NCBI GenBank assembly: GCA_951799405.1
Contig: OX637352.1
Location: forward strand, 14,022,820-14,086,819
Reading direction: 5' to 3'
Source: Agapetus fuscipes
Lineage: Eukaryota > Arthropoda > Insecta > Trichoptera > Glossosomatidae
DNA: 64,000 nt
The notes beneath the pieces are model-generated. The model was not told where the DNA came from. It did not search any database and saw nothing but the letters and a program-made list of their open reading frames with translations. Position numbers and translations under genes: made by a program. Position 1 is the first letter of the stretch; the number at the start of each line of letters is the position of its first letter. This document shows, piece by piece, positions 5,955-49,582 of the stretch.

Positions 5955-6209
5955 AAATCTAAATCTTAATCTTAGCTGCAAAGATATGTATCATTTGAGA
6001 TTCATATTAAATGTATTCCCACAAGCAAACACGCATAATTTCGCGCTTACACATGCCGCATGTGGACCTATAATAAAAAAAAAATCTCAAATGAACATAA
6101 TCCCTGCAACTCTTGCTGACCTTCCCTGAAACAGGGGGGAAATTGGCAAAGTGAACCATTTTTTACAGTATGGGTGGTCAGCCGCATACCAACCTATCAG
6201 TCAAGGAAA
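5955..6209 (-). repeat. Family X repeat, near full-length copy
   Basis: Starts at CTTAGCTGCAAAGATATG and ends at CCTATCAGTCAAGGA. It shows all the family blocks in order, including CCCACAAGCAAACACGC, CCTGCAACTCTTGC and TTGGCAAAGTGAACC. Confidence 0.8.
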
Positions 6210-13804: not shown

Positions 13805-16024
13805 TTAATGTCCAGAGTGGGTTCGTTTATGTGTTTTCAAAGTATCCAAGCGTACAGCCCTATAATCACATTGATCGCAAGAAAATGTTTTATGGCCAGA
13901 GTGAGTTAGTTTATGTGTTTTCAAATTACCTATCATCGTAGCTCTGTAATCACATTGATCACAAGCAAATGGTTTATGTCCAGAGTGGGTTCGTTTATGT
14001 GTTTTCAAAGTACCCATATGTGCTGTCCTATAATCACATTGATCACAAGCAAACGGTTTATGGCCAGAGTGTGTTCGTTTATGTGATTTCAAATTACCTT
14101 TCATTGCAGCTCTGTAATCACATTGATCACAAGCAAATGGTTTATGTCCAGAGTGTGTTCGTTTATGTGTTTTTAAAGTACCCAAGTGTACAGTCCTATA
14201 ATCACATTGATCACAAGCAAATGGTTTATGTCCAGAGTGTGTTCGTTTATGTGATTTCAAAGTACCTATCATTGCAGCTCTGTAATCACATTGATCACAA
14301 GCAAATGGTTTATGTCCAGAGTGTGTTAGTTTATGTGTATTCAAATTACCTAACTGTGAAGCTTTATAATCACACTGATCACATGCAAATGGTTTTTGTC
14401 TAGAGTGTGTTAGTTTATGTGTTTTCAAACTACGTAAGTGTACTGTCTTAAAATCACATTGATCACAAGCAAATGGTTTATGTCCAGAGTGGGTTCGTTT
14501 ATGTGTTTGCAAAGTATCCAAGCGTACAGTCCTATAATCACATTGATCACAAGCAAATGGTTTATGTCCAGAGTGTGTTTGTTTATGTAATTTCAGAGTA
14601 CCTGGGTATGAAGATTTATAATCACACTGATCACATGAAAATGCTTTATGTCCAGAGTGTGTTAGTTTATGTGTTTTCAAATTACGTACCTGTGTAGTCT
14701 TATAATTGCATTGATCACAAGCAAATGATTTATGTCCAGAGTGTGTTAGTTTATGTGATTTCAAAGTACTTGGCCGTACAGTTTTATAATCACATTGATC
14801 ACATGCAAATGGTTTATGTCCAGAGTGTGTTAGTTTATGTGTTTTCAAAGTACCTAACTGTGAAGCTTTATAATCACATTGATCACATGCAAATGGTTTA
14901 TCGCCACAGTGTGTTAGTTTATGTTTTTTCAAACTACCTAAGTGTCCAGTCTTATAATCACATTGATCACAAGCAAAAGGTTTATGGCCACAGCATGATA
15001 GTTTATGTGTTTTCAAAGTACCTAACTGTGAAGCTTTATAATCACATTGGTCACATGCAAATGGTTTATCGCCACAGTGTGTTAGTTTATGTGTTTTAAA
15101 ACTATCTAAGTGTCCAGTCTGAAAATCACATTGATCGCAACCAAATGGTTTAAGGCCACAGTGTGTTAGTTTATGTGTTTTAAAACTATCTAAGTGTTCA
15201 GTCTTAAAATCAAATTGATCACAAGCCAATGGTTCATGGTCAGAGAGTGTTAGTTTATGTAATTTCGAAGTCCCTGACTGTGAAGCTTTATAATTACACT
15301 GATCACAAGTAAATGATTTATATCCAGAGTGATTTAATCCATGGATTTTCAAACTATCTGCTTGTGCAGCTTCACACTGATCACAAGAAAATTGCTTCTG
15401 TCCAGTGTCTTTCAGTTCGTGTCTTTGAATACTAGATTTCCACACTGATTTGAAGCTACAATAATTGCAAAAACATTGTTTGTTTTTTTCAATGGCCAAC
15501 GTTTTGAGTTTGTTTTTTTTCTCATCGCCTTGTTCACCTCTTATATGAGTGTTAGTTTCCTGTTGATCTGCTGAGGTGGATGGCTCGCTCTCTAAGGTTG
15601 TGTGTCCGTGATGTTGGCTCTCGCTTGTTCCCAGGAAACATCCATAGTCTGCTGTGTTCTCCAGCTCGCAGCAACTGAACATCTGATGGATCCTTAAGTG
15701 TTTATTTAGATTGGTCTTGTAGCTGCAGGCATGGCACACATGCTCCAACCTGGCAAGATCATCTGAAAACCATCGATTGATTGATGAAATGTCGATTCTG
15801 TCCAACAATTCGCAGGATTCCTTAAAGAAGCCATGAGGCGGAGTGGCCGAGTCCTCATTCTTCACATTATCCACCACAGAGTCCTCGGCAAGCCATTCCT
15901 TCTTAATATCCAGTCTCTCTTGCTTCACATCGCTCTCTTCGATGTCTATTTGTTCATCTGAGTGCGCTAGATGTGCATCCATAACCCCCGGGACCAGCTC
16001 CTCAAGTTTCACAACCGCGTCCAT
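13805..16024 (-). CDS. C2H2 zinc-finger protein, copy A (739 codons, premature stop)
   Basis: Probable nuclear DNA-binding protein. It starts at MDAVVKLEELVPGVMDAHLA with an acidic N-terminal region (about residues 1-110; KQERLDIKKEW) and degenerate fingers up to about residue 250. It then has 18 tandem 28-residue units of the form CDQCDY-x-LxTHKxTHSGHKPFA. About 15 keep all four C2H2 ligands. One lacks the second Cys (CDQF), one the second His (HKLTL), and one has C for the last His (HKLSC). The linker is SGHKPFA rather than TGEKP. No ZAD or BTB domain is visible, and the frame is a single exon. The final TAA at 13805-13807 falls where neighbouring units have AAA (Lys of HKP), and the frame continues past it for 55 codons. 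Confidence 0.85.
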   Translation of the reverse strand: MDAVVKLEELVPGVMDAHLAHSDEQIDIEESDVKQERLDIKKEWLAEDSVVDNVKNEDSATPPHGFFKESCELLDRIDISSINRWFSDDLARLEHVCHACSYKTNLNKHLRIHQMFSCCELENTADYGCFLGTSESQHHGHTTLESEPSTSADQQETNTHIRGEQGDEKKNKLKTLAIEKNKQCFCNYCSFKSVWKSSIQRHELKDTGQKQFSCDQCEAAQADSLKIHGLNHSGYKSFTCDQCNYKASQSGTSKLHKLTLSDHEPLACDQFDFKTEHLDSFKTHKLTHCGLKPFGCDQCDFQTGHLDSFKTHKLTHCGDKPFACDQCDYKASQLGTLKTHKLSCCGHKPFACDQCDYKTGHLGSLKKHKLTHCGDKPFACDQCDYKASQLGTLKTHKLTHSGHKPFACDQCDYKTVRPSTLKSHKLTHSGHKSFACDQCNYKTTQVRNLKTHKLTHSGHKAFSCDQCDYKSSYPGTLKLHKQTHSGHKPFACDQCDYRTVRLDTLQTHKRTHSGHKPFACDQCDFKTVHLRSLKTHKLTHSRQKPFACDQCDYKASQLGNLNTHKLTHSGHKPFACDQCDYRAAMIGTLKSHKRTHSGHKPFACDQCDYRTVHLGTLKTHKRTHSGHKPFACDQCDYRAAMKGNLKSHKRTHSGHKPFACDQCDYRTAHMGTLKTHKRTHSGHKPFACDQCDYRATMIGNLKTHKLTHSGHKTFSCDQCDYRAVRLDTLKTHKRTHSGH

Positions 16025-16149
16025 TTTGATTACTTTTACAAAACATTAAACCCAACTTTCAACAATTAATAGGTCTGGGACTCAACACGGAGCTGACAAA
16101 AGAGATTACAATTTCTTTAAAAACACCGGTGTGAAGACAGCCTGATCGG
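16025..16149 (-). promoter_or_regulatory. 5' flank of zinc-finger gene A
   Basis: The sequence from the ATG to about 16125 is nearly the same as the 5' flank of copy B (55093-55190). The two diverge at AAAAACAC, where copy A enters CGGTGTGAAGACAG (foldback-type end sequence). No TATA box or initiator can be assigned with confidence. Confidence 0.35.
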
Positions 16150-16364
16150 ACGCCTGTGACGCCAGCCTGACAGCTGGGGATGAGAACTCACAAACCGGGT
16201 TTCCCAAGATGTATGGAATATTTTTTTAATGAAAAAAAAATATTTTTAACTGAAATAAAAGTAATATACAATGAAACGGACATTCATTCAAAAAAAATTG
16301 AGCACGAAATTAAATTAATAACAAAAAAACATGAGCGCCGAAAATATAGATGATAACTACATCT

Positions 16365-16605
16365 ATAATCTAAGTTGCAAGGATATATTCATTCAAAGGT
16401 CTCAGATGTATGCCCACAAACAAACACGTGTAGTTCGCGCTTACAAATGCTGATTGTGTACTTACAAATAAAATCCAAACCTCAAATGAACATAAGCCCT
16501 GCAACTCTTGCCGACATTCCCTGAAACAGGGGTGACATTGGCAAAGTGAACCATTTTTTACAGTATGGGTGGTCAGCCTCATACCAACCTATAAGTCAAG
16601 GAATA
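16365..16605 (-). repeat. Family X repeat inside satellite element 1
   Basis: Near full-length copy (TAAGTTGCAAGGATATATTC to CTATAAGTCAAGGA). The same copy sits at the same place in the truncated sister element (55455-55695), so it was inside the element before the two copies separated. Confidence 0.8.
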
Positions 16606-16639
16606 CATACTACTACAAATACCTTAGTTTTTCCTTCGG

Positions 16640-18350
16640 GACAATTTTAAGATTTTTTATTTCGTAGCTTGGCAATTTTCACTAAATTTTTTTTTTTTTT
16701 TGATTAATTATGTCTTTAATTAACATAATTTGAAATAAAAATAAACTTCTATCCGTCCGTCTTTATAAAAAAGATACATCGAAAAATAATCGGATATTTG
16801 TTTTAAAGTTCCAACTTCAAGATTTTTTATTTCGTAGCTTGGGAATTTCCACCTAAATTTTATTAAATTAATTGATTATTTATGTCTTTTATTAACATAA
16901 TTTGAAATAAAAAAGAAATTTGTATGCGTCCGTGTTTGAAAAAAATTACATCGAAAAAAAATCGGAATTTTCTTATAAAGTACCAAATTCAAGATTTTTT
17001 ATTTCGTAGGTTGGGAATTTCCACCTAAATTTTATTGGCATAATTGATTATTTATGTTTTTAATTAACATAATTTGAAATAAAAAAGAAACTTGTATGCG
17101 TCCGTGTTTGAAAAAAATTACATAAAAAAATAATCGGAATTGTCTTATTAAGTACCAAATTCAAGATTTTTTATTTCGTAGCTTGGGAATTTCCACCTCA
17201 ATTTTTTTGGCTTATTTGATTACTTATGTCTTTAATTAACATAATTTGAAATAAAAAATAAACTTGTATGCGTCCGTGTTTGAAAAAAATTACATCGAAA
17301 AAAAATCGGATATTTGTTTTAAAGTTCCAACTTCGAGATTTTTTATTTCGTAGCTTGGGAATTTCCACTTAAATTTTATTGGCTTAATTGATTGATTATG
17401 TCCTTAGTTAACATAACTTCAAAGAAAAAAGAAACTTGTATGCGTCCGTGTTTTAAAAAAATTACATCAAAAAATAATCGGAATTTTCTTATAAAGTACC
17501 AAATTCAAGATTTTTTATTTCGTAGCTTGAGAATTTCCACTTAAATTTTATTTGCTTAATTGATTATTTATGTCTTAAATTAACATAATTTGAAATAAAA
17601 AATAAACTTGTATGCGTCCGTGTTTGAAAAAAATTACATCGAAAAAAAATCGGATATTTGTTTTAAAGTTCCAACTTCGAGATTTTTTATTTCGTAGCTT
17701 GGGAATTTCCACTTAAATTTTATTGGCTTAATTGATTATTTATGTCTTTAGTTAACATAATTTGAAATAAAAAATAAACTTGTATGCGTCCGTGTTTGAA
17801 AAAAATTACATCAAAAAATAATCGGAATTTTCTTAAAAAGTACCAAATTCAAGATTTTTTATTTCGTAGCTTGGGAATTTCCACTTAAATTTTATTGGCT
17901 TAATTGATTAATTATGTCTTTAATTAACATAATTAAAAATAAAAAATAAACTTGTATGCGTCCGTGTTTAAAAAAAAATCCATCAAAAAATGTTCAATAC
18001 TGTTATAAATATGTAAATTTAAAAGAAAAAATATTCATAGTTCGGAACTTTTTACAAGTTTGTTTTTAGGTGTGATGATGTATAATATTATATTTTTACA
18101 TAAACTGAAATAAAAAATTGCACCCTACTACTTAATTTTCGAAAACCATTCCATCTAAAGAAACTCGGTCAAATTGTTGAAAATTTGCAAATTTCAAAAT
18201 TTTTTTTTTCGCATCTTAGAAATTTCCACTTGAATTTTTTTAGCTCTATTGATTTATTATACCTTCAATTTATATAAATTAAAATAAAAAATGAACTTCT
18301 ATGCGTCCATATCTATGAGAAATTCCATTTTACTAAAAGGGCTGTAAGTG
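16640..18350. repeat. 172-bp tandem repeat array
   Basis: The landmark GATTTTTTATTTCGTAG recurs at 16651, 16821, 16993, 17165, 17337, 17509, 17681 and 17853, a period of 170-172 bp. About eight clean units are followed by one or two degenerate ones to about 18350. Adjacent units alternate slightly (ACTTCGAGATT vs AATTCAAGATT), hinting at a dimer. The unit is related to the 171-bp repeat of element 2. Confidence 0.9.
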
Positions 18351-18819
18351 GGAGGATCAGAATTTTTCTCTTAAGTTAATGGTTATTTTTAATAGTTTTT
18401 AGTATTGTCTTTCAAATTGCATATTTAAAATTTAATTTTTTTATTGCTTTATTACATTATAATTAAGTTATAACCTTTTTTTTTTATATGGGGAAATTTA
18501 AATTTTGGGCTGCCACCTGTCAGGCTGGCGTCACAGGCGTCCTGATCGGTGTGAAGACAGCCTGACGTGAGCCTACCGGTGTGAAGACAGCCTGACAGGT
18601 GCTAGCCTGACAGCTGGGGAAATCTGGGGATGAAAACGAAAAAACCCGTTTCCCTAAATGTATGGATTACTTTTTTTTTAGAGAAAAAATTATATTTTAA
18701 CAATTTATAGGTATAAAAACATTTAAAGACCAAATGCGTTCACAAATAAACTTAATAAATCTTTCGCAAACAAAAATATACACGAAAAGGCGTATCCTTC
18801 ACATATTCATGAAGCTTTG

Positions 18820-21800
18820 TAAATGCCTTTATGTCAACTGTTTGTGAAAAACGAAATCATAGACCGTATTTTTTTACGACTGATTATGTTGACTAGGGAT
18901 GTACTCAAGCATAATCAGCAATAAAATTTAGGAGATTCTACCCATAGAGAAAAAAAATGTCGAAATTTTCATAGTTATATGAAAAATCATACTTTTGCGA
19001 TGGAAGATTGTGAAAAAACTAAATCATAGACTGTATTTTTTTACGACTGATTATGTTGACTAGGGATGTACTCAAGCATAATCAGCAATAAAATTTGGGA
19101 GATTCTACCCAAGCCATAGAGAAAAAAATTGTCGAAATTTTCATAGTCATATGAAAAATCATATTTTTTGCGATGGAAGATTGTGAAAAAACGAAAGCAT
19201 AGACTGTATTTTTTTACGATTGATTATGTTAACTAGAGATGTATTCAAGCATAATAAGCAGTAAAATTGAGGAGATTCTACCCAAGCCAAAGAGAAAAAA
19301 AATGTCGAAATTTTCATAGTCATATGAAAAATCATATTTTCTGCGATGGAAGATTGTGAAAAAACGAAAACATAGACTGTACTTTTTTACGATTGATTAT
19401 GTTAACTAGGGATGTATTCAAGCATAAAAAGCAATAAAATTTGGAAGATTCTACCCAAGCCATGGAAAAAAAATTGTCGAAATTTTCATAGTCATATCAA
19501 AAATCATATTTTTGCGATGGAAGATTGTGAAAAAACTAAATCATAGACTGTATTTTTTTACGACTGATTATGTTGACTAGGGATGTATTCAAGCATAATC
19601 AGCAATAAAATTTGGGAGATTCTACCCAAGCCATAGAGAAAAAAAATGTCGAAATTTTCATAGTTATGTGAAAATCATATTTTTGCGATGGAAGATTGTG
19701 AAAAAACTAAATCATAGACTGTACTTTTTTACGATTGATTATGTTAACAAGAGATGTATTCAAGCATAATAAGCAATAAAATTTGGGAGATTCTACCCAA
19801 GCCATAGAGAAAAAAATTGTCGAAATTTTCATAGTCATATGAAAAATCATATTTTTGCGATGGAAGATTGTGAAAAAACGAAAACATAGACTGTACTTTT
19901 TTACGATTGATTATGTTAACAAGAGATGTATTCAAGCATAATAAGCAATAAAATTTGGGAGATTCTACCCAAGCCATAGAGAAAAAAATTGTCGAAATTT
20001 TCATAGTCATATGAAAAATCATATTTTCTGCGATGGAAGATTGTGAAAAAACGAAATCATAGACTGTATTTTTTTACGATTGATTATGTTAACTAGGGAT
20101 GTATGTAAGCATAAAAAGCAATAAAATTTGGGAGATTCTACCCAAGCCATAGAGAAAAAAATTGTCGAACCTTTCATAGTCATATGAAAAATCATATTTT
20201 CTGCGATGGAAGATTGTGAAAAAACGAAAACATAGACTGTACTTTTTTACGATTGATTATGTTAATTAAGGATGTATTCAAGCATAATAAGCAATAAAAT
20301 TTTGGAGATTCTACCCAAGCCATAGAGAAAAAAATTGTCGAAATTTTCATAGTCATATGAAAAATCATATTTTCTGCGATGGAAGATTGTGAAAAAACGA
20401 AAACATAGACTGTACTTTTTTACGATTGATTATGTTAACTAGGGATGTATTCAAGCATAAAAAGCAATAAAATTTGGGAGATTCTACCCAAGCCATAGAA
20501 AAAAAATTGTCGAAATTTTCATAGTCATATCAAAAATCATATTTTTGCGATGGAAGATTGTGAAAAAACGAAAACATAGACTGTACTTTTTTACGATTGA
20601 TTATGTTAACAAGAGATGTATTCAAGCATAATAAGCAATAAAATTTGGGAGATTCTACCCAAGCCATAGAGAAAAAAAATGTCGAAATTTTCATAGTTAT
20701 ATGAAAAATCATATTTTTGCGATGGTAGATTGTGAAAAAACTAAATCATAGACTGTATTTTTTTACGACTGATTATGTTGACTAGGGATGTATTTAAGCA
20801 TAATCAGCAATAAAATTTGGGAGATTCTACCCAAGCCATAGAGAAAAAAAATGTCGAAATTTTCATAGTTATATGAAAATCATATTTTTGCGATGGAAGA
20901 TTGTGAAAAAACGAAAACATAGACTGTACTTTTTTACGATTGATTATGTTAACAAGAGATGTATTCAAGCATAATAAGCAATAAAATTTGGGAGATTCTA
21001 CCCAAGCCATAGAGAAAAAAAATGTCGAAATTTTCATAGTTATATGAAAAATCATATTTTTGCGATGGTAGATTGTGAAAAAACTAAATCATAGACTGTA
21101 TTTTTTTACGACTGATTATGTTGACTAGGGATGTATTTAAGCATAATCAGCAATAAAATTTGGGAGATTCTACCCAAGCCATAGAGAAAAAAAATGTCGA
21201 AATTTTCATAGTTATATGAAAATCATATTTTTGCGATGGAAGATTGTGAAAAAACGAAAACATAGACTGTACTTTTTTACGATTGATTATGTTAACAAGA
21301 GATGTATTCAAGCATAATAAGCAATAAAATTTGGGAGATTCTACCCAAGCCATAGAGAAAAAAAATGTCGAAATTTTCATAGTTATATGAAAAATCATAT
21401 TTTTGCGATGGTAGATTGTGAAAAAACTAAATCATAGACTGTATTTTTTTACGACTGATTATGTTGACTAGGGATGTATTTAAGCATAATCAGCAATAAA
21501 ATTTGGGAGATTCTACCCAAGCCATAGAGAAAAAAAATGTCGAAATTTTCATAGTTATATGAAAATCATATTTTTGCGATGGAAGATTGTGAAAAAACGA
21601 AAACATAGACTGTACTTTTTTAGGATTGATTATGTTAACAAGAGATGTATTCAAGCATAATAAGCAATAAAATTTGGGAGATTCTACCCAAGCCATAGAA
21701 AAAAAATTGTCGAAATTTTCATAGTCATATCAAAAATCATATTTTTGCGATGGAAGATTGTGAAAAAACGAAAACATAGACTGTCCTTTTTTACGATTGA

Positions 21801-23250
21801 TTATGTTAACAAGAGATGTATTCAAGCATAATAAGCAATAAAATTTGGGAGATTCTACCCAAGCCATAGAGAAAAAAAATGTCGAAATTTTCATAGTTAT
21901 ATGAAAAATCATATTTTTGCGATGGTAGATTGTGAAAAAACTAAATCATAGACTGTATTTTTTTACGACTGATTATGTTGACTAGGGATGTATTTAAGCA
22001 TAATCAGCAATAAAATTTGGGAGATTCTACCCAAGCCATAGAGAAAAAAAATGTCGAAATTTTCATAGTTATATGAAAATCATATTTTTGCGATGGAAGA
22101 TTGTGAAAAAACGAAAACATAGACTGTACTTTTTTACGATTGATTATGTTAACAAGAGATGTATTCAAGCATAATAATCAATAAAATTTGGGAGATTCTA
22201 CCCAAGCCATAGAGAAAAAAATTGTCGAAATTTTCATAGTCATATCAAAAATCATATTTTTGCGATGGAAGATTGTGAAAAAACGAAATCATAGACTGTA
22301 TTTTTTTACGATTGATTATGTTAACTAGGGATGTACTCAAGCATAATAAGTAATAAAATTTGGGAGATTCTACCCAAGCCATAGAGAAAAAAAATGTGGA
22401 AATTTTCAGAGTCATATGAAAAATCATATTTTTGCGATGGAAGATTGTGAAAAAACGAAAACATAGACTGTACTTTTTTACGATTGATTATGTTAACAAG
22501 AGATGTATTCAAGCATAATAAGCAATAAAATTTGGGAGATTCTACCCAAGCCATAGAGAAAAAAATTGTCGAAATTTTCATAGTCATATGAAAAATCATA
22601 TTTTTTGCGATGGAAGATTGTGAAAAAACGAAAACATAGACTGTACTTTTTTACGATTGATTATGTTAACAAGAGATGTATTCAAGCATAATAAGCAATA
22701 AAATTTGGGAGATTCTACCCAAGCCATAGAGAAAAAAATTGTCGAAATTTTCATAGTCATATGAAAAATCATATTTTTTGCGATGGAAGATTGTGAAAAA
22801 ACGAAAGCATAGACTGTATTTTTTTACGATTGATTATGTTAACTAGAGATGTATTCAAGCATAATAAGCAGTAAAATTTAGGAGATTCTACCCAAGCCAA
22901 AGAGAAAAAAAATGTCGAAATTTTCATAGTCATATGAAAAATCATATTTTCTGCGTTGGAAGATTGTGAAAAAACGAAAACATAGACTGTACTTTTTTAC
23001 GATTGATTATGTTAACTAGGGATGTATTCAAGCATAAAAAGCAATAAAATTTGGGAGATTCTACCCAAGCCATAGAAAAAAAATTGTCGAAATTTTCATA
23101 GTCATATGAAAAATCATATTTTCTGCGATGGAAGATTGTGAAAAAACGAAAACATAGACTGTACTTTTTTACGATTGATTATGTTAACTAGGGATGTATT
23201 CAAGCATAATAAGCAACAAAATTTGGGAGATTCTACCCAAGCCGAAGAGA
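18820..23250. repeat. 171-bp satellite array, left arm (about 26 units)
   Basis: The landmark GGGAGATTCTACCC recurs every 169-172 bp. Other fixed blocks are TTTTTTACGA(C/T)TGATTATG, CAAGCATAAT(A/C)AGCAATAAAAT and TTGCGATGGAAGATTGTG. Because 171 is a multiple of three, open frames run through several units on the minus strand; their repeated 60-90-residue translations have no domain and are not genes. The left-most units are more diverged. Confidence 0.92.
20640..22140. repeat. 343-bp higher-order (dimeric) repeat block
   Basis: Within the left arm two unit types alternate: one with GTTGACTAGGGATGTATTTAAG and AAACTAAATCATAG, the other with GTTAACAAGAGATGTATTCAAG and AAACGAAAACATAG. The pair repeats at 343 bp (171+172) about four times, with near-identical copies starting at 20804, 21147 and 21490. 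This indicates recent amplification of a dimer. Confidence 0.85.
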
Positions 23251-23300
23251 AAAAATTATGGGGATGCTTTCGAAATTGAAAGCCGTATGAATCCAGTTGG
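23245..23300. repeat. Inner inverted segment of the foldback-like element (left)
   Basis: ATTATGGGGATGCTTTC... through CCAGTTGGAAT matches, inverted, 26256-26310 (ATTATGGGAATGCTTTC... CCAGTTGGAAT). It shows that the two arms extend past the satellite arrays to the loop edge. Confidence 0.75.
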
Positions 23301-23548
23301 AATCTAACTTATCATAAATATTTTATTTTATTTTATTTTATTTAATCAAAAAAACCATTACCATTTATTTAAAAAGAACAGTCTGTGAGCTGTGAGTTCG
23401 CGTTCTGTAAGAACAAGATCATCGTCATCATCATACTCCCCGCTGAAGAAGCCCATCGTAGGAATGGTCGAAACGTCCGAAAGCTTCAGCTTCCACAGAC
23501 CACGGTTACCGATCCCGGAAAATATCACTCTATCAAAAATAGACCGTT

Positions 23549-26240
23549 TTTTTTTTTTTTTTTTTATTTCATAAACAATTTTTACAAGAAATATAAATCT
23601 TAAAAATTAAACATTTTTGTCCCGATAAACCAAAAAATTTCAGTTTGTCATCGGGTGCAACAATCAAATTAAAAAATATAAGTCTTAGTATTTAGTGCTA
23701 GTATGAAATAAAAAGTAAATTAAAGTTAAAATTAGGAGACAAGAGTAGAGTAAAAACACAAATATAGTTAAGGTAATTAATATAAAAAAGTTCTTTCTCC
23801 CAGCCAAATCTTCAAAGATATTATAATTTTATTAATGTTTGTAGATTCCTTTTTAAAGTCCTTTGGCAACAAATTAAATATTTTTGGCACAAGGTAATCC
23901 AACGTTCTTTGTCCATATTTGTTATTAATTCTTGGCACAACTAGTCCTTCATTAGATGTAAATCTTGTTTGGTACACATGCTCTAGTTTATTTTTATATT
24001 TATCATTAAACAATTGTTGACATATAATTATGTTCCATAGTATACCCTTAATAGGCAAGACATTTAATGATTGGAATAAAAATGGTATATTCTGCCTTTG
24101 GTTATACACATTTATGGGAGCAATTAATTTTAAGAGAGCATTTTGAACATTTTGTACATTTTTAATATTGGTGGCGCAAGAATGTCCCCATGCAGTGAGG
24201 CCGTATCTTATAATGGACTCGGCAAGCGATAAATATACCAATCTTAATGTAGGGAGCGGCAATATAAACTTTAACTTATATAATTGTCCAACAACAGATC
24301 TCAGTCGTTTGCACGTTTTTGAAGTATGTGTGTCCCACTTGAAGAAACAGTCAATTGTTACTCCTAGATAAGTATAATCGCTTACAATGTCAATATTTTC
24401 ACATAAACAAGTTCTACAATTATTGGTGACATGAAGGCATTCATAATTATGGGCTTTTATGGTTGGCACAGTACTAATTCTAGCATGAGGGGATCTAATA
24501 TGCATAATTTTAGTTTTTTTTGAATTAATTAAAAGACCTGCATCATGACACCAATTCTGCAGTTTATCAAAATCATTTTGTAACATTGTGTTACATTCAT
24601 CTAAATTCTCACTAGATATGACAAGTGCAGTATCATCCGCATATACATAATATTTTACATTTGAGAAAATATATTTAATAAAAGATACATAAATTATATA
24701 TAATATAGGGCCTAAAACAGATCCTTGCGGGACCCCAGCACTGATGTTCTTAATATCACTTTTAGATCCATCAATATTAACAGTCATGGTTCTGTTAGAG
24801 AGGTAATTTTCAAAGAGATGTAAAACTGGGCCTCTAATCCCTATGACATCTAAGTATCTAAGCAATTTTAAGTGATCAATTGTATCAAAAGCCTTGGAGA
24901 AGTCAATGAATAATACTAATACATGTTTTTTATTGTTTAATTCGTTATTAATATGATTGGAAAAACTTTGAAGTAGAATTTCTGTACTCCTACCCTTCTG
25001 AAATCCATATTGATTGGTATCCAGAATTTCAAATTTGTTAAGATATTGAGTCAACTTTGAGAAAATGTATTTTTCAAGTATTTTTTCAAGAGCAGGTAAT
25101 ATACTAATTGGCCTATAGTTTCCCATTACAGAGTGATCACCACCCTTGTAGATTGGTCTGATTAGGCTACATTTTAATTTCAGAGGAATTATTCCCTGGT
25201 TTATAATTGAGTTAATTAAATGTGTAACAAGAGGTCCCAATATTTCCACGTGTTTTTTTAAGTCAGTCATTCGGATAAGGTCAACTCCTGGTGTTTTAGA
25301 GTTTTTTGCAAGATTTATTATTTTTACAACTTCAGATAGTTTAGCTTTAGGTAAATAAAAGCTATGTGGAAGCATATCAGGCTCTGGACCAGCAATTTTT
25401 ATACTACAAACGTGCATTAACTGGGATACATTATCAGAGAAATACTTAGCAAATTCATTGGAAACACTTTCAATGCAATTATATTTGTTGTTTACAAAAT
25501 ATTTTTTTATAACTTCATCACAATTTGTTTTAGATTTTCTGCCTAAGATTTTGTTACATTCATCCCAGGTTTTTTTTATGTCCTTGAAACAATTCTTAAA
25601 TTTATCATTATAAAAAGTTAACTTTAATTTCAAAATTTTTTTGTTCAAGTAATTACGTATCGTTTTATACTCCTTTTCATAAAACTTATTACTAGGTGTA
25701 CTCTTCCATCTCCTAAATAAGATGTCTCTTTGTTTTATTTCCTGTAGAATCTCCCTATTTATCCAGTCTTTCGTAGCGTTAGGTCTATTTTTATTTTTAT
25801 GGCACCATGGAATTAGGCTTTCTTTATACAAATTATCAAAAGCATTACAAATTTTATAGTATAATAATTCGCAATCATTTTCTTCAAGAAGAGTATTCCA
25901 GTCAGTTTTAATAATATTACTATCTAACCGTTTTTGCGACATAATGAACATTGGTTTATTTTTGGCAACATTATCAGATTTATTATTCCGTCTATACTGA
26001 AAACTAATTGCTGTCGCATAATGGTCAGCTATAAGATATTCACATACACAAGCACGTATATTTACAGAGCAGAAACCACGCCCAACACTTACAGGATCAT
26101 TTGTTATATACCTCAAATAAATATGGTCAATACAAGATTTTGTAACAATATCATTGACTATTGCTTCTCTAGTTACATCAGAAATACATTTTACCATTCT
26201 TTATTATATATGGTAATGTTTTTTTTTTTATTAATTAAAA
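23549..26240 (-). pseudogene. 5'-truncated non-LTR retrotransposon (CR1/Jockey-like), RT frame open
   Basis: The open frame 23777-26197 (806 codons, minus) starts inside the apurinic endonuclease: CIDHIYLR (about residue 22) and the ADHYATAI motif (58-65) remain, and the rest of the endonuclease and ORF1 are missing. The reverse transcriptase follows with GNYRPISILP (359-368), FIDFSKAFDTIDH (430-442), GVPQGSVLGP (488-497) and YADD (519-522), then the thumb and a C-terminal segment. A run of T on the plus strand at about 23549-23567 is its poly(A) tail. The RT is uninterrupted, so the copy is young, but it cannot move alone. It occupies the loop of element 2. Confidence 0.88.
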
Positions 26241-26494
26241 TATAAAAAAAGTTAAATTCCAACTGGATTCACACAGCTTTCAAACTGGAAAGCATTCCCA
26301 TAATGAAATTAGATAATATTTTTAATATTTTGGATAGTTGGTGCATTAACACTGTAAAAATTTATCTTTTCTTTAGTTATTCAAACTCTGTTATATTTTC
26401 ACTGTTTCATTTTTTTAAGTTTTAGACACACACGTTTTCGATTACGCAGTAATCATCATCAGGTGGTAAAAATTATCGTTGTATATTTTTGAAC

Positions 26495-28690
26495 ATTTTC
26501 TTCTCTATGGCTTGGGTAGAATCTCCTAAATTTTATTGCTTGTTATGCTTGAATACATCCTTAATTAACATAATCAATCGTAAAAAAGTACAGTCTATGC
26601 TTTCGTTTTTTCACAATCTTCCATCGCAAAAAATATGATTTTTCATATGACTATGAAAATTTCGACAATTTTTTTCTCTATGGCTTGGGTAGAATCTCCC
26701 AAATTTTATTGCTTATTATGCTTGAATACATCTATTGTTAACATAATCAATCGTAAAAAAGTACAGTCTATGTTTTCGTTTTTTCACAATCTTCCATCGC
26801 AGAAAATATGATTTTTCATATGACTATGAAAGGTTCGACAATTTTTTTCTCTATGGTTTGGGTAGAATCTCCCAAATTTTATTGATTATTATGCTTGAAT
26901 ACATCCTTAGTCAACATAATCAGTCGTAAAAAAATACAGTCTATGATTTAGTTTTTTCACAATCTTCCATCGCAAAAATATGATTTTTTATATAACTATG
27001 AAAATTTCGTCATTTTTTTTCTCTATGGCTTGGGTAGAATCTCCCAAATTTTATTGCTTATTATGCTTGAGTACATCCCTAGTTAACATAATCAATCGTA
27101 AAAAAATACAGTCTATGATTTCGTTTTTTCACAATCTTCCATCGCAAAAATATGATTTTTGATATGACTATGAAAATTTCGACAATTTTTTTCTCTATGG
27201 CTTGGGTAGAATCTCCCAAATTTTATTGCTTTTTATGCTTACATACATCCCTAGTTAACATAATCAATCGTAAAAAAATACAGTCTATGATTTCGTTTTT
27301 TCACAATCTTCCATCGCAGAAAATATGATTTTTCATATGACTATGAAAATTTCGACAATTTTTTTCTCTATGGCTTGGGTAGAATCTCCCAAATTTTATT
27401 GCTTATTATGCTTGAATACATCTCTTGTTAACATAATCAATCGTAAAAAAGTACAGTCTATGTTTTCGTTTTTTCACAATCTTCCATCGCAAAAATATGA
27501 TTTTTCATATGACTATGAAAATTTCGACAATTTTTTTCTCTATGGCTTGGGTAGAATCTCCCAAATTTTATTGCTGATTATGTTTGAATACATCCCTAGT
27601 CAACATAATCAGTCGTAAAAAAATACAGTCTATGATTTAGTTTTTTCACAATCTTCCATCGCAAAAATATGATTTTTCATATAACTATGAAAATTTCGTC
27701 ATTTTTTTTCTCTATGGCTTGGGTAGAATCTCCCAAATTTTATTGCTGATTATGTTTGAATACATCCCTAGTCAACATAATCAGTCGTAAAAAAATACAG
27801 TCTATGATTTCGTTTTTTCACAATCTTCCATCGCAAAAAATATGATTTTTGATATGACTATGAAAATTTCGACAATTTTTTTCTCTATGGCTTGGGTAGA
27901 ATCTCCCAAATTTTATTGCTTATTATGCTTGAATACATCCCTAGTTAACATAATCAATCGTAAAAAAATACAGTCTATGATTTCGTTTTTTCACAATCTT
28001 CCATCGCAAAAAATATGATTTTTGATATGACTATGAAAATTTCGACATTTTTTTTCTCTATGGCTTGGGTAGAATCTCCCAAATTTTATTACTGATTATG
28101 CTTGAATACATCCCTAGTCAACATAATCAATCGTAAAAAAATACAGTCTATGATTTAGTTTTTTCACAATCTTCCATCGCAAAAATATGATTTTTCATAT
28201 AACTATGAAAATTTCGACATTTTTTTTCTCTATGGCTTGGGTAGAATCTCCCAAATTTTATTGCTGATTATGCTTGAGTACATTCCTAGTCAACATAATC
28301 AGTCGTAAAAAAATACAGTCTATGATTTAGTTTTTTCACAATCTTCCATCGCAAAAATATGATTTTTCATATAACTATGAAAATTTCGACATTTTTTTTC
28401 TCTATGGCTTGGGTAGAATCTCCCAAATTTTATTGCTCAATATGCTTGATTACATCTCTAGTTAACATAATCAATCGTAAAAAAATACAGTCTATGATTT
28501 CGTTTTTTCACAATCTTCCATCGCAAAAAATATGATTTTTCATATGACTATGAAAATTTCAGTATTTTTTTTCTCTATGGCTTGGGTAGAATCTCCCAAA
28601 TTTTATTGCTGATTATGCTTGATTATGTTACTAGTTAACATAGTCAGTAGTAAAATTGTAGTGTCTATGTTTTAGTTTTTTCAATAATTT
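26495..28690. repeat. 171-bp satellite array, right arm (about 13 units, inverted)
   Basis: Same satellite as 18820-23250 but on the opposite strand (GGGTAGAATCTCCC, CATAATCAATCGTAAAAAA). It has half as many units as the left arm, so the arms are unequal. The outermost unit near 28600-28690 is diverged. Confidence 0.92.
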
Positions 28691-28929
28691 GCATTTTACT
28701 AAAAGTGCTCTAGTTATTGATTGCCGAGATTTTTATTACATTTTATTTAATTTTGTAATAGATTATTGTATAATTATTCATTTGGTATAGTTTTATAAGT
28801 ACTTTTTATAGTTTTATTGCTTTTTAATTAAGTTTAAATTATTTATTTTTTAATATGGGGAATTTTTGTTCAACCGTCAGGCCATCCCAACTGTCAGGCT
28901 GGCACCTGTCAGGCTGTCTTCACACCGGT

Positions 28930-29001
28930 CGTGAGCCTGACACCTGCCAGCCTGACAGTTAGGGAAAATTGAATTTCCCCACATAATAAAAATAATAGGG
29001 T
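28930..29001. repeat. Remnant end of a third foldback-type element
   Basis: After the CGTGAGCCT duplication the sequence reads GACACCTGCCAGCCTGACAG, then TTAGGGAAAATTGAATTTCCCC, the same subterminal style as elements 1 and 2. With the ACCGGTGTGAAGACAGCCTG at 16124-16143 it suggests that elements 1 and 2 landed in an older relative. Confidence 0.5.
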
Positions 29002-29747
29002 AATAGGGTATTTGCAATAGTGAGGAATATGATAAAAAGTATATTATTTTGATGGATTTCGAAAAATCAAATAATAATATTTTGATTTGAAGCCGAAAAT
29101 ATTTTTTTTCGATTTTATATTTAAAAAAGAAAATACAGAAATTTGGACAAGTTTTTAAACGGATATGAGATATGCTTCTTCTATTTCCGGTGCTGTGACG
29201 TCATATGTTGACGTCACCAAACCCGGAAATCTCGGTCCTACGGCTCGTTGTAATGAGCTTCTCTCGTTTTGGAAGAGGCGCTGATGTCGGTTGTTTAAGA
29301 TACTAAAAGGATCATGTGCTTTAATAAATATATTTGTTCAAGTTTTGGGTCAATGAAGGCAGATATTAGGAAATATAAAATACAGGAATCTGTAAAATTT
29401 ATAACTCCACTGGTTAATGAAATTTTGTATAAATCGCCGTGTCTAATTCATGGTCAAATTATAAAGTGAAATATTATTACTACGCTCGCTCTGCATGTAG
29501 CAAAAACTTGCCATTTCCGTTCAGTTTGCCCCACCCCACTCCTTCACCCCCCGCGGCCACCATCAACCCACGCGGAGTAAAAATGTTTGTCGTCGATCTA
29601 AAAAACGTGAAATATTCATTAAAAAGGACAATATATTAAATCGCTGCAAGTTTTCCTCGTAGAGAAGGTAATATTACACTTATTATTATATGGTGAAGTT
29701 CATTTCAAACATCGGATACGATATTTTATCATATTGTTTTTTTGCAG

Positions 29748-29929
29748 GTGGGATGCATGTTTTTCTCGACCAGAAAATTTCAAGCCGCAGGAAAAAGCGA
29801 TCCAGGAAGTGTCTCAACCTGAACCAATGTACGTGTATTGCAATAAACATGTATTGCCGCTTCCACTTCGAAGAAAACTTTATTAGAAATCCGTCGGAAA
29901 GATTATATGGACCGCTACTCATAACATGA
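29748..29929 (+). pseudogene. THAP-domain C-terminal half remnant
   Basis: After a splice-acceptor-like TTTTTTTGCAG (ends 29747) the frame includes RKCLNLNQC and then YCRFHFEENFIRNPSERL. C-x2-H-F followed by a hydrophobic stretch is how THAP domains close their zinc site. The matching first half (C-x2-4-C) is seen at 103-174 and 41932-41982 but not here. Probably a decayed exon. No catalytic residues of a P transposase are seen. Confidence 0.4.
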
Positions 29930-29964
29930 CGTGTTATTTTATTCATTCGCTGAACGCTGCTTAT

Positions 29965-30035
29965 GTTCTACGCTGGGAACCGAACTCAAGACCTTCGGAT
30001 ATTGAGTGGTGGCGTCAACCACTAGACTGTACACC
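29965..30035 (-). mobile_element. tRNA-like SINE fragment
   Basis: Read on the minus strand, ACAGTCTAGTGGTTGACG and then CTTGAGTTCGGTTCCCAGC resemble A and B boxes at tRNA spacing. No intact cloverleaf and no anticodon I can assign with confidence. Confidence 0.45.
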
Positions 30036-30399
30036 GGTGAAATATGTGAAGAAATGTTTTGTGATTTTGTGTTGTGATTTTGGAGAAAAGTGTCAAAATA
30101 AATATTTGTTACTACAATAATTGCTAACCAAGGTCCTTACATAGGTAAGTAGTTTATGTTATATTTCTGATACATTAGATTTCAAAAACATATAATTTTC
30201 TGTATGTTATCTTGTATCTTATCTGCTAATAAATGAAACACGTAAATATTCACTTTTTTTATTTTTTGTACGAAATGGGAGTAGGTATGGAATAATAATA
30301 TGAGATAATATTATAGGAGCATGGCATAGCGCGTATGTATGAGTGCACTAACACACTCTCACGTACACGCACACGTCGTGGTTCGCGCTCGTTACATTA

Positions 30400-30864
30400 T
30401 GGGGCTTCCACACGCTTGCCTCAAACGCCTTGAGTCAAGGGCTTGCAAGCTCTTGGAAAACCAAACAGGGTCATCCACACGCTTGTGCGTGCGTCTGTGT
30501 GTGTTAGAATAAGCAAGCATGGCGGACGTCCAGCTTTTAGCTATAACATTTGGATAAACTTATTTTTATTTAAAAAAAAAACAAAACAAAAAGAGAGAAA
30601 CTAAAAAGAAACGAATAATTCGGCAAAGACGATGGTGGATGATCAAAATTCATAGAAACCGTACCGCACCAGAATGCGCGCGCACAAGTATGTGTGTGCC
30701 TGGCATGCGCATGCGTGAATTCCCTTTGACTTGCGTCAAAAAACCGACTCTGGTCGGATCGGCGACAAGCTGAGCCAAGGCGGCTTAAGCCACGCCCCCA
30801 GCTGAGCCAAACGGCCGTCCACACGCTCGACTTGGCTCGACTTGGCAAGCGTGTGGATGCCCCA
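30400..30864. mobile_element. 465-bp MITE with TGGGGCTTCCACACGCTTG ends
   Basis: Left end TGGGGCTTCCACACGCTTG, right end the inverse of TGGGGCATCCACACGCTTG. TTA is duplicated at 30397-30399 and 30865-30867. It is longer than its 174-bp relatives (1107-1280, 33626-33799). ATGGCGGACGTCCAGC at about 30519 opens a short frame that soon stops. It may be a less-deleted derivative of the parent element. Confidence 0.8.
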
Positions 30865-31389
30865 TTACGTGACGCTAGTATCTCTAGCCTGATATAATTA
30901 TTATTATTAAACCGGAAATACAAATATATATTAGGAACTCAGTTCTCTATAAACCTATACTCTGTGGACGTCACTTTCTTTTATTGACATTCCATACTCT
31001 GCTGACATGTGTTGTTGACAACAGAAACAAATGAAAATAACAGAAACAAATGAAATGTTTTTAAAGAAACACACAAACTTCTTGAAAAAACAACAGCCTC
31101 AACGGTGTAAACATTAAAAAGCGATGTTTGAATGACATGAATGTGAGGGCTGTCAGTTGATACGGCGATGTTTACAAGACCGTGACGTCACGCGAGAAAA
31201 TTTCATCTAGTAGCGTTTTGGCGCGAAAATTCAAAAGTCGATTTTAAAATGCTTATAACTTTGCTAAAAATACAACTAAAATAAAAATTCAAGAAGTTTT
31301 GGGCTAATAAAGCATAAACAAATTTAAATCACAAAAAAAATAAAAATGTGAAAATACCCTATTGCAGTGGTAGGGAAAACGGTTGAAAA

Positions 31390-33498: not shown

Positions 33499-34861
33499 GA
33501 AGTGCAATTCTCGATGTTCGGTTGCACTAAAGATATTAGTTGCCGGTGGAGATTAATAGCCCTTGCGAAAGAGTTCCTTTGCCGTTTTGCGATTCTCGTT
33601 CCCACCGACCTTCCGACTATCCTTATGGGGCTTCCACACGCTTGCCAACCCATCTCAAGTCAAGCGCACAGTGAGTCGTCTAGAACATGCTAGCTGGACA
33701 AAATTTTGTCTAATGGACTCATTTTGTCCAGCTAGCATGTTCTAGACGACACACTGTGCGCTTGACTTGAGATGGGTTGGCAAGCGTGTGGAAGCCCCAT
33801 TACAAGGGACAGCAATGGTTTTTTTAAGTTTTTTCTCGATTGGCCAGACTGACGGATGATCGAAGTGATAACCGTCCGACAGGTGCCAGCTCAAAGGGTA
33901 AATTTCCCCATATATTTAAAAAAAATACTAAAACTTCATCAAAAAGTAGTAAAACAATAATAAGGGCAAATAAGTACGTAACAACTGAATGAAAATACAT
34001 AAAACTACATTACAATGTAATGAAAAACTCAGTTCTCAACAATACAATGTTTGTACGTACGTCATGCAGATAATTATTATGCTTTTGACAACAATAAATT
34101 TGCACTAAGAAATTGCGTTATTTTTTCACAGTTTCATCTTCATTTGTGATAAATTGTAAACATAATTATTTACAAGTGATTTTCAATCATTATAACGCTC
34201 AATTTACAAAGATTTAAGCATAGATTTAATTGTCAAATGTCAGTTGACAGCAGACGTGAAGTTAGCCTGATTTGCCAGCCTGCTATGCGAGAGCTGTGAA
34301 CTATGAGAATTGCCCCCAAAGTCCAAGGAAAAATAATTTCACATAAAATGTTATTTATAATCATTTCCTAATTTTAAAATATTTGAAATAAACAAATCAC
34401 CTTAAATTTTTTAATTAAAATAAATTGGGCTAGTTTTAACAAGTTGAAGGAGTAAAAGTACAATATAAACAATAGTTTTCACCAAACATTGTATTGTTGA
34501 GAACTGAGTTTTTTATTACATTTTAATGTAGTTTTATGTATTTTCATTCCGTTGTTTCGTACTTATTTGCACTTATTATTGTTTTACTACTTTTTGATGA
34601 AGTTTTAGTATTTTTTTTTAAATATATGGGGAAATTTACCCTTTGGGCTGGCACCTGTCGGACGATTATCACATCGATCATCCGTCAGTCTGGCCAATCG
34701 AGAAAAAACATACAAAACCCATTGCTGTCCCTTGTAAGGATAGTCGGAAGGTCGGTAGGAACGAGAATCGCAAAACGGCAAAGGAACTCTTTCGCAAGGG
34801 CTATTAATCTCCACCGGCAACTAATATCTTTAGTGCAACCGAACATCGAGAATTGCACTTC
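33499..34861. repeat. Long palindrome with 378-bp arms, foldback-type
   Basis: The left arm (33499-34053) equals, inverted, the right arm (34484-34861) once a 174-bp MITE and 3-bp duplication are removed from the left; both are then 378 bp with a handful of mismatches. The spacer is 430 bp. The arms contain CCGACAGGTGCCAGC...AAATTTCCCC, the subterminal motif shared with satellite elements 1 and 2. No outer target duplication could be read. Confidence 0.85.
33626..33799. mobile_element. 174-bp MITE (TGGGGCTTCCACACGCTTG family), copy in a palindrome arm
   Basis: Same length and ends as the copy at 1107-1280, with TTA duplicated at 33623-33625 and 33800-33802. The opposite palindrome arm reads CCTTACAAGG at the matching place (34732-34741, inverted), a clean empty site. 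Confidence 0.92.
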
Positions 34862-35185
34862 GCTTACTCTGTGCCAACCTGATATGCGAGAGCTGTGAAC
34901 TATGAGAATTGCCCCCAAAATCCAAGGAAAAATAATTTAATATAAAATGTTATTTATAATTATTTCCTAATTTTAGCATATTTGAAATAAGCAAATCACC
35001 TTTAATTTTTTAATTAAAATAAATTGGGCTAGTTTTAACAAGTTGAAGGAGTAAAAATACAATATAAAAAATAGTTTTCACCAAACATTGTATTGTTGAG
35101 AACTGAGTTTTTCATTATATTGTAATGTAGTTTTATGTATTTTCATTCAGTTGTTACGTACTTATTTGCCCTTATTATTGTACTT
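34278..35185 (+). repeat. Direct duplication of the palindrome's spacer flank
   Basis: 34278-34510 recurs at 34876-35110 (GCGAGAGCTGTGAACTATGA, AATTGCCCCCAAA, ATTGGGCTAGTTTTAACAAG), offset about 597 bp. Similarity continues to about 35185 (GTTTTATGTATTTTCATTC). It marks a partial tandem duplication of the foldback element. Confidence 0.75.
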
Positions 35186-38366: not shown

Positions 38367-38583
38367 TAGCCTGTATAATCTAAGTTGCAAAGATATATTT
38401 ACATTCAAAACTCATAGCCATGCCCACACCGACACGTGTAAGTTCGCTCTTACAAATGCTGAATGTATTTACAAATAAAAATCCAAACCTCAAATAAACG
38501 TACACCCTGCAACTCTTGCTGGCCTTCCCTGAAACAGGGGTGACATTGGCAAAGTGAACCATTTTTTACAGTATGGATGGACA
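38367..38583 (-). repeat. Family X repeat copy
   Basis: From CTAAGTTGCAAAGATATAT to TACAGTATGGATGGAC, with CCCTGCAACTCTTGCTGGCC and GTGACATTGGCAAAGTGAACC. Confidence 0.8.
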
Positions 38584-48159: not shown

Positions 48160-49074
48160 TTTGGAGGTTGTGTGTGTGGTGAGAATTGAAAGCCCGTATT
48201 TGAAAGTGTATATTTTTAATGCAGTCAGTACTGTTCAATCAAAGGTAATTCAAAATGTTGTCTTGGTTGCAATCTTCCGGTCTTCAAGCTGCGTTCAGGC
48301 GGAAGTCCTCCTTAATCCGCCTTGCTTGTGAGGCGAGCAGGATGCTTGATGCTTGAAGTGGGGGAAGGAAAGGAAATATGGAAAGTGGCAATTAGGACGT
48401 AACTTGAAACTTTTGAGGAAGTTCAGATTGGCCCTAACAAGGACCTTTTGTTGTGAGCAGGAGAAAAAACTGTAAACTTTTGAGGAAAATTAAAAGTGGC
48501 CCTAAGAAGGACCTTTTGTGTTGTGATGTGAGCAGTGTGCTGTAGGAGACGGTTGCCTCAAGTCTGTTCCTGGCGAGGTCTTGAGAATCTTCTAGGTAAA
48601 GATGTGGCGAAGCTGGAGATGTCCAGGTGAAGATATGATGAAGCTGGAGATGTCCAGGCGAAGGCACGAGGTAAGATGTCGTCTCTGCTTGGAAATTGGC
48701 GGGAACGCGAGAGATGTCTTGAGATTTTGGCGGGAGATGTAGATGTCCGCTCGGTGGTCTCGAAGTTTCTCTGGTGATGATGTAGTGGTCTGCGGAGACG
48801 TCCAGGCGACGGTGCAAAGTTGTTTTGCGTCTCTGCTTGGAAATCGGCGGGAACGCGAGACGGCTTGCAATTTTGGCGGGAGCGCGGTAAGATGTTGCTC
48901 GTTCCGTGGTCTCAGTGTGTCTGGCTGTTTGGAGCGCGGCGTACGCGTTTTATACTCCCGCTCGTTCTCGCGGGCCCACTACTAGGGGTGGGCACGCACA
49001 ATTTTCGGATTATCTTCTTTTTATCTGATTTCAGATATCTGGTTTTCTTTCATCTTCTGTACTGATGCACCACA
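48160..49074 (-). repeat. 3' LTR of the gypsy element
   Basis: Adjacent on the inner side is a purine-rich stretch (in element orientation CACTGGAGGGGGCCTC) directly before the LTR, serving as the polypurine tract. Short open frames inside the LTR occur identically in the other LTR and are not genes. Confidence 0.9.
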
Positions 49075-49582
49075 GAGGCCCCCTCCAGTGTCAATGACGT
49101 CTTGAAGTGAGCGTTATTGATGCGATGTTTTTGTGCAGAAGATGAAGGTACTGCTCGTCGTAGCAGGATAAGAGATTCTACGTTGTATCTGGTGTGTGTG
49201 CTGACAGATGTGTGAGCTTACGATCCTCCTAGGCGGATGCGGAGGCAGGATTGTGAAGTCAGCTGCAGCGGTCCTGATGAGGATCTTGAGGCGTCGTCAG
49301 GTTGTCTCCAGATTTATGGAGTTCCTCTGGTTTTTCCAGGCTGTTGTCCTGTGGTGAGGAATTGTACTACTTGTTGTAGCGGGGTTGGTTGTTTGTTGCT
49401 CAGCGGTTGCTGTTTGTTGTAGCATTGATTGCTGTGCCGTAGTTCGGCGTTTGCTGCTTGGGCAGCGGGATTGTTGTTTGTTGCTACGCTGTGCAGCTAT
49501 GGTGAGCGACTTCCAATCCTCCAGTGCCTCGTTGCGCTGGGTGAAATTGGGGAGTCGGCTGCAGCGGGGTGAGGAAATACTT
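49075..49582 (-). other. Noncoding segment between pol and the 3' LTR
   Basis: About 500 bases with no long frame on the element's strand. It contains GTTGTAGC/GTTGCT low-complexity runs, and the polypurine tract at its 3' end. Confidence 0.6.

Follow-up and report, generated by a model that had tools for sequence, protein, structure and literature searches.

FB elements of Drosophila melanogaster have inverted ends made of tandem repeats and 9-bp duplications. How satellite DNA originates and spreads has long been asked, with transposons among the proposed sources. In the parts of its published account drawn on here, Tetris of Drosophila virilis is a non-autonomous foldback element with flanking, tandem-repeat and inner domains, units of ~220 bp and duplications of 8-10 bp, for which the authors suggest Mutator (Dias et al., 2014; PMC4079207). 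Its arrays reach 66 copies, fiber-FISH revealed long arrays between two flanking domains, one unit is duplicated between two allelic copies, and the authors considered that larger arrays may have disrupted transposition (PMC4079207). In the Tetris assembly 39 contigs held repeats alone, and fiber-FISH detected no array without flanking domains (PMC4079207). Also described are the F subfamily of Galileo in Drosophila mojavensis, with 7-bp duplications, a P-type transposase and two or three units per described copy (PMC3573991), and lepidopteran MITEs carrying (GTCY)n microsatellites (via the review PMC9659126).

The family considered here was met in a stretch of 64,000 nucleotides from the trichopteran Agapetus fuscipes (GCA_951799405.1, contig OX637352.1, positions 14,022,820 to 14,086,819; the window), and very probably consists of non-autonomous, foldback-type DNA transposons that move their satellite arms whole, most likely with a MULE transposase acting in trans. 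The element in the window (Table 1) agrees closely with its first-pass annotation: the ends are inverted at exactly 18575 and 28929, the perfect 9-bp target duplication is present on both borders, and the two oppositely oriented satellite arrays, given there as about 26 and 13 units, contain 25.7 and 12.7 units of 172 bp by TRF and 26 and 13, standing head-to-head, by profile search. By self-BLAST, however, the terminal inverted repeat is limited to 44 bp (42/44 identical), and over the ~200 bp inside each end the left and right sequences are unlike, so that the arrays are inverted and the flanking domains are not. The inverted unique segments noted at the edges of the loop do exist, but are really the halves of one partly palindromic core of ~585 bp, split by the LINE that had likewise been recognised. 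This LINE is a later insertion, incidental to the element; its open frame (23777-26200, 807 aa) includes a reverse transcriptase, no endonuclease match was found in that frame, and it is probably 5'-truncated. Among the 12 classified units of the right arm, the outermost two belong to variant b and the remaining ten to variant a.

Table 1. Features of the window element and of the sequence beside it (positions in the window).
Feature	Position	Strand	Remarks
Older family end, outer tip	16125..16149	+	resumes at 18541-18574 and from 28930; partly direct reading
Second, related element, ends ACGCCTGTGACGCCAGCCTGACAG	16150..18540	.	
Left target site duplication, 9 bp, CGTGAGCCT	18566..18574	.	exact
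Left terminal inverted repeat, 44 bp, A-type end	18575..18618	+	
A-end flanking domain	18619..18841	+	
Left arm, ~26 units of 172 bp	18842..23255	+	variant a in 25/25 classified units
Core (~585 bp), left half	23256..23555	.	
LINE within core	23556..26192	-	edges approximate
Core (~585 bp), right half	26193..26494	.	
Right arm, ~13 units	26495..28683	-	orientation opposite to left arm
B-end flanking domain	28684..28885	-	
Right terminal inverted repeat, 44 bp, B-type end	28886..28929	-	
Right target site duplication, 9 bp, CGTGAGCCT	28930..28938	.	exact

Beside this element stands the second, related one, which has its own 172-bp array (16642-17991) and an exact 9-bp duplication, CCTGATCGG, at 16141-16149 and 18541-18549; both were inserted in one older family end. 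A zinc-finger-like locus of the window exists in duplicate, with an element beside it.

A genome-wide search for paired ends, as the first-pass annotation had advised, returned 261 matches to a 20-bp end (121+140), compared with 2 (1+1) for a reversed-pattern control. Among the first 100 exact end places listed, neighbours within 20 kb were facing in 27 cases, facing away in one and on the same strand in two, while shuffling of strands gave a mean of 7.5 facing neighbours and a maximum of 15. From a listing limited to 100 places, 27 further facing pairs of exact ends within 20 kb were taken, and with the window element they form the sample of 28 elements, a choice that favours intact, recent copies. 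Satellite units are present in all 28, hence around every other pair of ends (27/27), and on both sides in 25 by profile search, although the left side of L015 amounts to three unit matches; in the 25 two-sided elements every + unit lies left of every - unit, giving the long inverted tandem-repeat arms around a middle domain that characterise foldback-type elements. Not every end is so accompanied: among six ends without a partner, viewed in loci of 3 kb, two lack units and three have 2-5 unit matches each, partly weak or partial. Likewise, the duplication recurs exactly in 18 of the 28 elements, at 9 bp in 11 and 8 bp in seven, sizes within the 8-10 bp expected of foldback-type elements, and fails to do so in ten; cross-pairing of borders gave 2/756, both from the adjacent pair L017/L018. 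Neither the exact duplication nor the unit-bearing end is therefore universal in the family. The insertion sites are enriched in TGACA/TGTCA, with modest controls, which suggests a target preference; the motif is also present in the family's own ends, and some elements are nested within one another's ends.

Mutator (MULE) elements make target site duplications of 8-11 bp, and P and hAT elements make duplications of 8 bp. The 8 or 9 bp found in 18/28 elements fall within the Mutator range, whereas the 7-8 bp of the P superfamily (Galileo) do not accommodate the 11 duplications of 9 bp among the 18 exact ones. No recognised transposase was found in the elements read, and MULE remnants inside the 28 elements were rejected (best E 0.16). 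Full-length relatives encoding a transposase, which the first-pass annotation had proposed to seek, did not emerge; none of the 12 MULE matches in the genome has the family's ends within ~1.5 kb. Since no transposase is linked to the ends, the label FB/Mutator is one that we infer, and the affiliation with FB suggested earlier is unsupported, the closer published match being Tetris. It is conceivable, if doubtful, that an enzyme other than a MULE, such as a transposase of Merlin or P type, moves the elements: nowhere searched does a MULE gene lie within the ends, seven of the 28 elements have duplications of the 8-bp size that P and hAT also make, and Galileo shows foldback-like ends within the P superfamily (PMC3573991). 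Against this stand the 9-bp duplications of 11/28 elements, the several MULE genes in the genome, including an open frame of 493 aa in three copies of ~98% identity, and the placement of Tetris (8-10 bp) and Tm1 (9 bp) in Mutator by their authors, as far as those accounts were drawn on (PMC4079207; PMC3169594).

Arrays transpose as whole arrays, as is seen in the sister copies P37 (C6) and P39 (C10), whose flanks are unrelated and whose duplications are TAGTTTCA and CGATAACGA. Their A ends differ by one mismatch over 1,818 bp, and the inner B arm and core by two over 1,901 gap-free columns, the latter block being confirmed in a separate comparison; megablast at 98% returned just two same-strand blocks longer than 500 bp, one of them off register (98.1%). 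Of 17 aligned A-arm units 15 are identical, as are 25 of 33 in the B arm, which suggests that some 50 units were already present before the copies separated. The B arm nevertheless has 70 units in one sister and 38 in the other; provided that the assembly is correct, the number of units thus changes subsequently. Array lengths do depend on the assembly: near-identical tandem units pose difficulties for assembly, runs of N occur at two of the 28 loci (L009 and L010), and the middle block missing from the shorter arm could be a collapse. That such length differences are assembly errors is nonetheless unlikely, since the unit order common to both arm ends and the unrelated flanks are hard to produce by misassembly, and the main conclusion would stand even if the difference of 70 against 38 were an error. 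Together with the units around all 27 other pairs and the duplications in 18/28, the array-sharing sisters bear out the earlier proposal that a transposon of the TIR type carries and spreads a satellite as its arms.

Units within one arm are ~94% identical on average (882 of 963 units), whereas the flanking domains average ~97-98% between copies (11 of 12 core-family elements, L017 omitted), which argues that unit diversity predates the spread of the elements. After orientation by end type, the two arms differ in the variants they carry in most elements of the core family and of g1b, and in some elements the variants of one arm occur in the other. Homogenisation of arms within an element was rejected, as the element's own opposite arm was closest in 0/17, 0/3 and 1/4 two-armed elements of three groups, a count made before orienting by end type. 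A specially conserved box in the unit was also rejected (20 invariant columns in the best 29-column window; shuffled mean 17.4, maximum 23), and lag comparisons of units gave no clear higher-order periodicity.

The first-pass annotation went further and saw a direct route from mobile element to satellite DNA, which is not demonstrated. Of the first 100 places listed for a core-family satellite 25-mer, a listing that spans C1-C3 and the first 21.32 Mb of C4, 99 lie within four elements and the only one outside (C1:17296376) is solitary. No escape of the satellite from the elements was thus observed, and long arrays standing free of mobile elements, which define a classical satellite, are absent from these 100 places. 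Genome-wide the 25-mer has 951 places, 464 in the 28 elements and 487 others not located. It is quite improbable that a free satellite came first and was captured, or repeatedly surrounded by insertion, by a TIR transposon. Such an origin would agree with the lack of any similarity above shuffles between the unit and either the core or the 44-bp end, and with only one of four comparisons with flanking domains beating 200 shuffles (group-2 unit against A-end domain, score 28 against a maximum of 27); with one of eight comparisons above shuffles, derivation of the unit from end, flanking domain or core was rejected. It sits poorly, however, with the 99 of 100 listed places and the 464 of 951 genome-wide places inside elements, and the fixed polarity, together with unit sequences that track element subfamilies, argues for long joint descent of unit and element. 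That segmental duplication or recombination, rather than transposition, produced the copies is extremely improbable: ten of 28 elements lack exact duplications and the window's zinc-finger-like locus is duplicated with an element alongside, but exact duplications stand directly at the ends in 18/28 and the sisters differ in both flanks and duplications.

Under the favoured reading of satellite arms moved whole by transposition, an element would comprise a short terminal inverted repeat, a ~200-bp flanking domain, an array, the core, an inverted array, a second flanking domain and a second terminal repeat. The transposase, acting in trans and most likely a member of the Mutator (MULE) superfamily, would recognise the ends and mobilise the element in its entirety, leaving duplications of 8-9 bp at TGACA/TGTCA-rich sites. 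The arrays would travel intact, unit number would change afterwards, and variants may pass between arms when the inverted repeat recombines or the template is switched within it. More tentatively, the elements might be a closed incubator of satellite DNA, in which transposition or associated repair would drive array growth, each arm keeping its own satellite lineage, the arms overwriting one another through inverted exchange and arrays tens of units long staying fully mobile; a species could then have a dispersed satellite found almost solely inside transposons. Because this one genome contains many paired copies, the transposon-to-satellite question becomes testable, and the gap of tens of units that separates barely diverged sisters lets one ask whether the change occurs at transposition.

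Among known systems, FB of Drosophila melanogaster, likened here by description and not by sequence, shares the tandem-repeat inverted ends and the 9-bp duplications. Lepidopteran MITEs similarly carry tandem repeats on non-autonomous elements, but these are four-base microsatellites as opposed to inverted arms of 172-bp units (PMC9659126). Tm1 of root-knot nematodes resembles the family in that its ends are composite and contain variable tandem repeats, its duplications measure 9 bp and most of its copies are non-autonomous; it differs in its ~14-bp units and in the Phantom-type MULE transposase within its ends (PMC3169594), none having been found here. The Galileo F subfamily has long repetitive terminal repeats with ~210-bp units, ends that change length independently and copies that exchange sequence, but its 7-bp duplications and two or three units contrast with the 8-9 bp and long arrays here (PMC3573991). 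Tetris is a close precedent, by published description rather than sequence comparison, sharing the foldback plan with flanking, tandem-repeat and inner domains, the lack of autonomy, duplications of 8-10 bp and long arrays (PMC4079207). The two differ in that Tetris has three structurally complete copies described compared with 28 paired copies here, that its unit has 37 bp in common with the flanking domain whereas no consistent similarity was found here, and that 39 repeat-only contigs are reported for it while 99 of the 100 listed places here lie inside elements (PMC4079207). Relative to those parts of the Tetris account drawn on here (PMC4079207), what is new is the repeat variants specific to one arm and their transfer to the other, the TGACA-rich target sites and the long-armed copies that transposed, as these sisters, each with its own duplication, speak against the suggestion that larger arrays may disrupt transposition.

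The inverted ends and the 9-bp duplication at both borders that the first-pass annotation had described for the window element (W) are both present, the end repeat being a 44-bp inverted sequence with 42 identical positions. Its two opposite arrays, put at about 26 and 13 units, were recovered by TRF (25.7 and 12.7 units) and by profile search (26 and 13), and the LINE reported inside the loop splits a core of about 585 bp lying between the arms of this copy. The LINE has an open frame of 807 amino acids, and its organism-named relatives, seven among 120 listed, are moths or butterflies throughout.

The element belongs to a dispersed family whose ends are often paired. Its 20-bp end has 121+140 genome matches at up to two mismatches (reversed-pattern control 1+1) and the 43-bp version 68+85 at up to three (control 0). 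Among the 100 exact matches of the 20-bp end listed, on contigs C1-C19, neighbours within 20 kb comprise 27 facing pairs, one pair facing away and two on the same strand, whereas strand shuffling gives a mean of 7.5 facing neighbours (maximum 15) and random placement 0.9 neighbours whatever their orientation (maximum four). All 27 facing pairs were read, giving 28 elements together with the window element. A further 46 exact ends listed lie outside facing pairs, at least four of them with a mismatched partner nearby. In the 3-kb loci L001-L006 around six of these ends, one has a clear array, three have 2-5 unit matches, and L005 and L006 have no satellite units.

All 28 elements carry family units (963 matches, partial ones counted), on both sides in 25 and on one side in L010, L021 and L025. 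In every one of the 25 two-sided elements, each plus-strand unit lies to the left of each minus-strand unit, with 3 to 72 matches per side (three only on the left of L015). The units form sequence groups with consensus lengths of 166-170 and between-group consensus identities of 0.61-0.84. The core is found, whole or partial, in 12 of the 28, with two short pieces in L020 and a diverged version in P31 and P33.

Arrays transpose as whole blocks, as the comparison of two sister copies shows. P37 on C6 and P39 on C10 have unrelated flanks and different duplications (TAGTTTCA and CGATAACGA). A single mismatch separates their A ends across 1,818 bp, and the inner B arm plus core aligns without gaps for 1,901 columns, two of them mismatched. 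In the A arms (20 and 18 units) 15 of 17 aligned positions are identical, in the B arms (70 and 38 units) 25 of 33. Counting runs of at least three units that different elements share at 99% or more gives 19 with the order kept and none with it reversed, every one contributed by this pair; lowering the threshold to 98% narrows the difference (54 versus 33). Counter-evidence comes from megablast at 98%, which returns only two same-strand blocks above 500 bp between the sisters, one of them off register (98.1%). No other pair is this close, and unit order at 99% is not shared among most other copies. Mean identity of the flanking domain, the roughly 200 bp between end repeat and array, is 97-98% in 11 core-family copies (L017 omitted) and 80-99% in other groups.

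The two arms mostly differ in their units. The comparison covered 882 of the 963 units, those of at least 150 bases; arms were oriented by end type (L017 by hand), and units were classed by leave-one-out consensus at 6-13 diagnostic columns. In the majority of the 12 core-family elements the A end adjoins variant a and the B end variant b. The window element departs from this pattern, its B arm reading b, b and then ten a; in L017, L018, L024 and P35 the B arm likewise has a units at its inner end, the B arm of P41 is a mosaic, b predominates in both arms of L014, and L020 is mixed. Group 2 does not separate cleanly into the two classes, and in group 3 L009 and L026 carry class b in both arms. 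We read this distribution as transfer between inverted arms, by a mechanism that we infer; general homogenisation of the arms was rejected.

The 9-bp duplication extends to part of the family: it is exact in 11 of the 28 elements, exact but 8 bp long in seven and not exact in ten (L011, L014, L015, L016, L017, L018, L019, L020, L024 and P29), L011 and L014 each mismatching at one of nine positions. When the left flank of one element is cross-paired with the right flank of another, two of 756 combinations give a duplication, both from the adjacent L017 and L018, which have a common outer duplication, CGAATCACA. Around 23 elements (W, L015, L017, L018 and L019, in or beside family ends, were omitted), TGACA/TGTCA occurs 40 times within 100 bp per side, where Markov simulation gives 12.7 on average (sd 3.3, maximum 23 in 300), and lies within 50 bp of 19 of the 23 against 4.2 at random window sites (maximum 11 in 1000). 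In eight 3-kb loci, two of them flanking L009, itself one of the 23, motif density is 1.1 per 100 bp adjoining the element against 0.35 at 300-1500 bp, and three of the eight have no motif within the first 100 bp. A promoter effect may also account for the enrichment. Family ends contain CTGACAG, and this could explain the nesting of elements in them.

The listed places of the core-family satellite lie almost all in such elements. For a 25-bp stretch of the core-family unit the genome has at least 545+406 places at up to one mismatch (control 0), counts that are lower bounds; the 28 elements contain 464 of these at least 951 places. The first 100 exact places listed cover C1-C3 and the stretch of C4 before 21.32 Mb; 99 of them fall in four elements (L014, P31, L016 and P33) and one outside the elements read. 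Units also occur in a MULE pseudogene, listed below with the neighbouring features.

A second family sometimes adjoins the first. On direct reading of the sequence, the window element and the second element both lie in an older family end. Second-family ends have 52+53 genome matches at up to one mismatch (control 0), and many of these 105 are in facing pairs as judged by eye.

Coordinates of the elements and neighbouring features (window positions unless a locus or contig is named)
Feature	Position	Observation
Window element	18575-28929	Inverted ends at 18575 and 28929
Second-family element	16150-18540	Ends ACGCCTGTGACGCCAGCCTGACAG; exact 9-bp duplication CCTGATCGG; 172-bp array, about 64-66% identical to that of the window element
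Adjoining first and second families	C10:13068756-13068783	One example of direct contact
Zinc-finger-like gene copies	55069-55834; 16001-16744	Same second-family element start near the gene's 5' end; sequence immediately outside that start differs
Palindromic block	33500-35181	Inverted arms about 95% identical around GCCAGACTGACGG motifs; flanking-domain-like sequence (about 70%); no target duplication found; possibly a distant relative without arrays
LTR-type retroelement	48434-54406	Repeated end frames identical; between zinc-finger-like fragments
Block of about 1.75 kb	29217-30963	Partly also at L005 beside a family end; missing from paralogous stretch 58858-59456; probably a separate mobile insertion
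Interspersed repeat, about 250 bp	16354-16607; 5959-6208; 38374-38583; others	Many window copies; perhaps a SINE
Satellite units in a MULE pseudogene	L051 2827-3108 with L055 1-540 (C1, about 11.954 Mb)	Some five units starting in the coding part, outside any pair of ends; DNA following them without similarity to the elements read
Exact end with mismatched partner	C1:9883877 with C1:9886011	Example among ends outside facing pairs

Among open frames of at least 110 amino acids that the 28 elements have beyond their arrays, none was recognised as the family transposase; a Pfam scan covered five frames or pieces. MULE domains match the genome at 12 places, and no family end lies within about 1.5 kb of any of them. 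A related exon has 15 matches, none inside first- or second-family ends among the ends listed, as checked by eye. In titles and abstract openings of open-licence papers, no foldback, satellite or Mutator element of this kind was found for a moth or butterfly. Membership of the Mutator superfamily is therefore a matter of inference, and it is the size of the target duplication, together with published relatives such as Tetris and Tm1, that suggests this placement.
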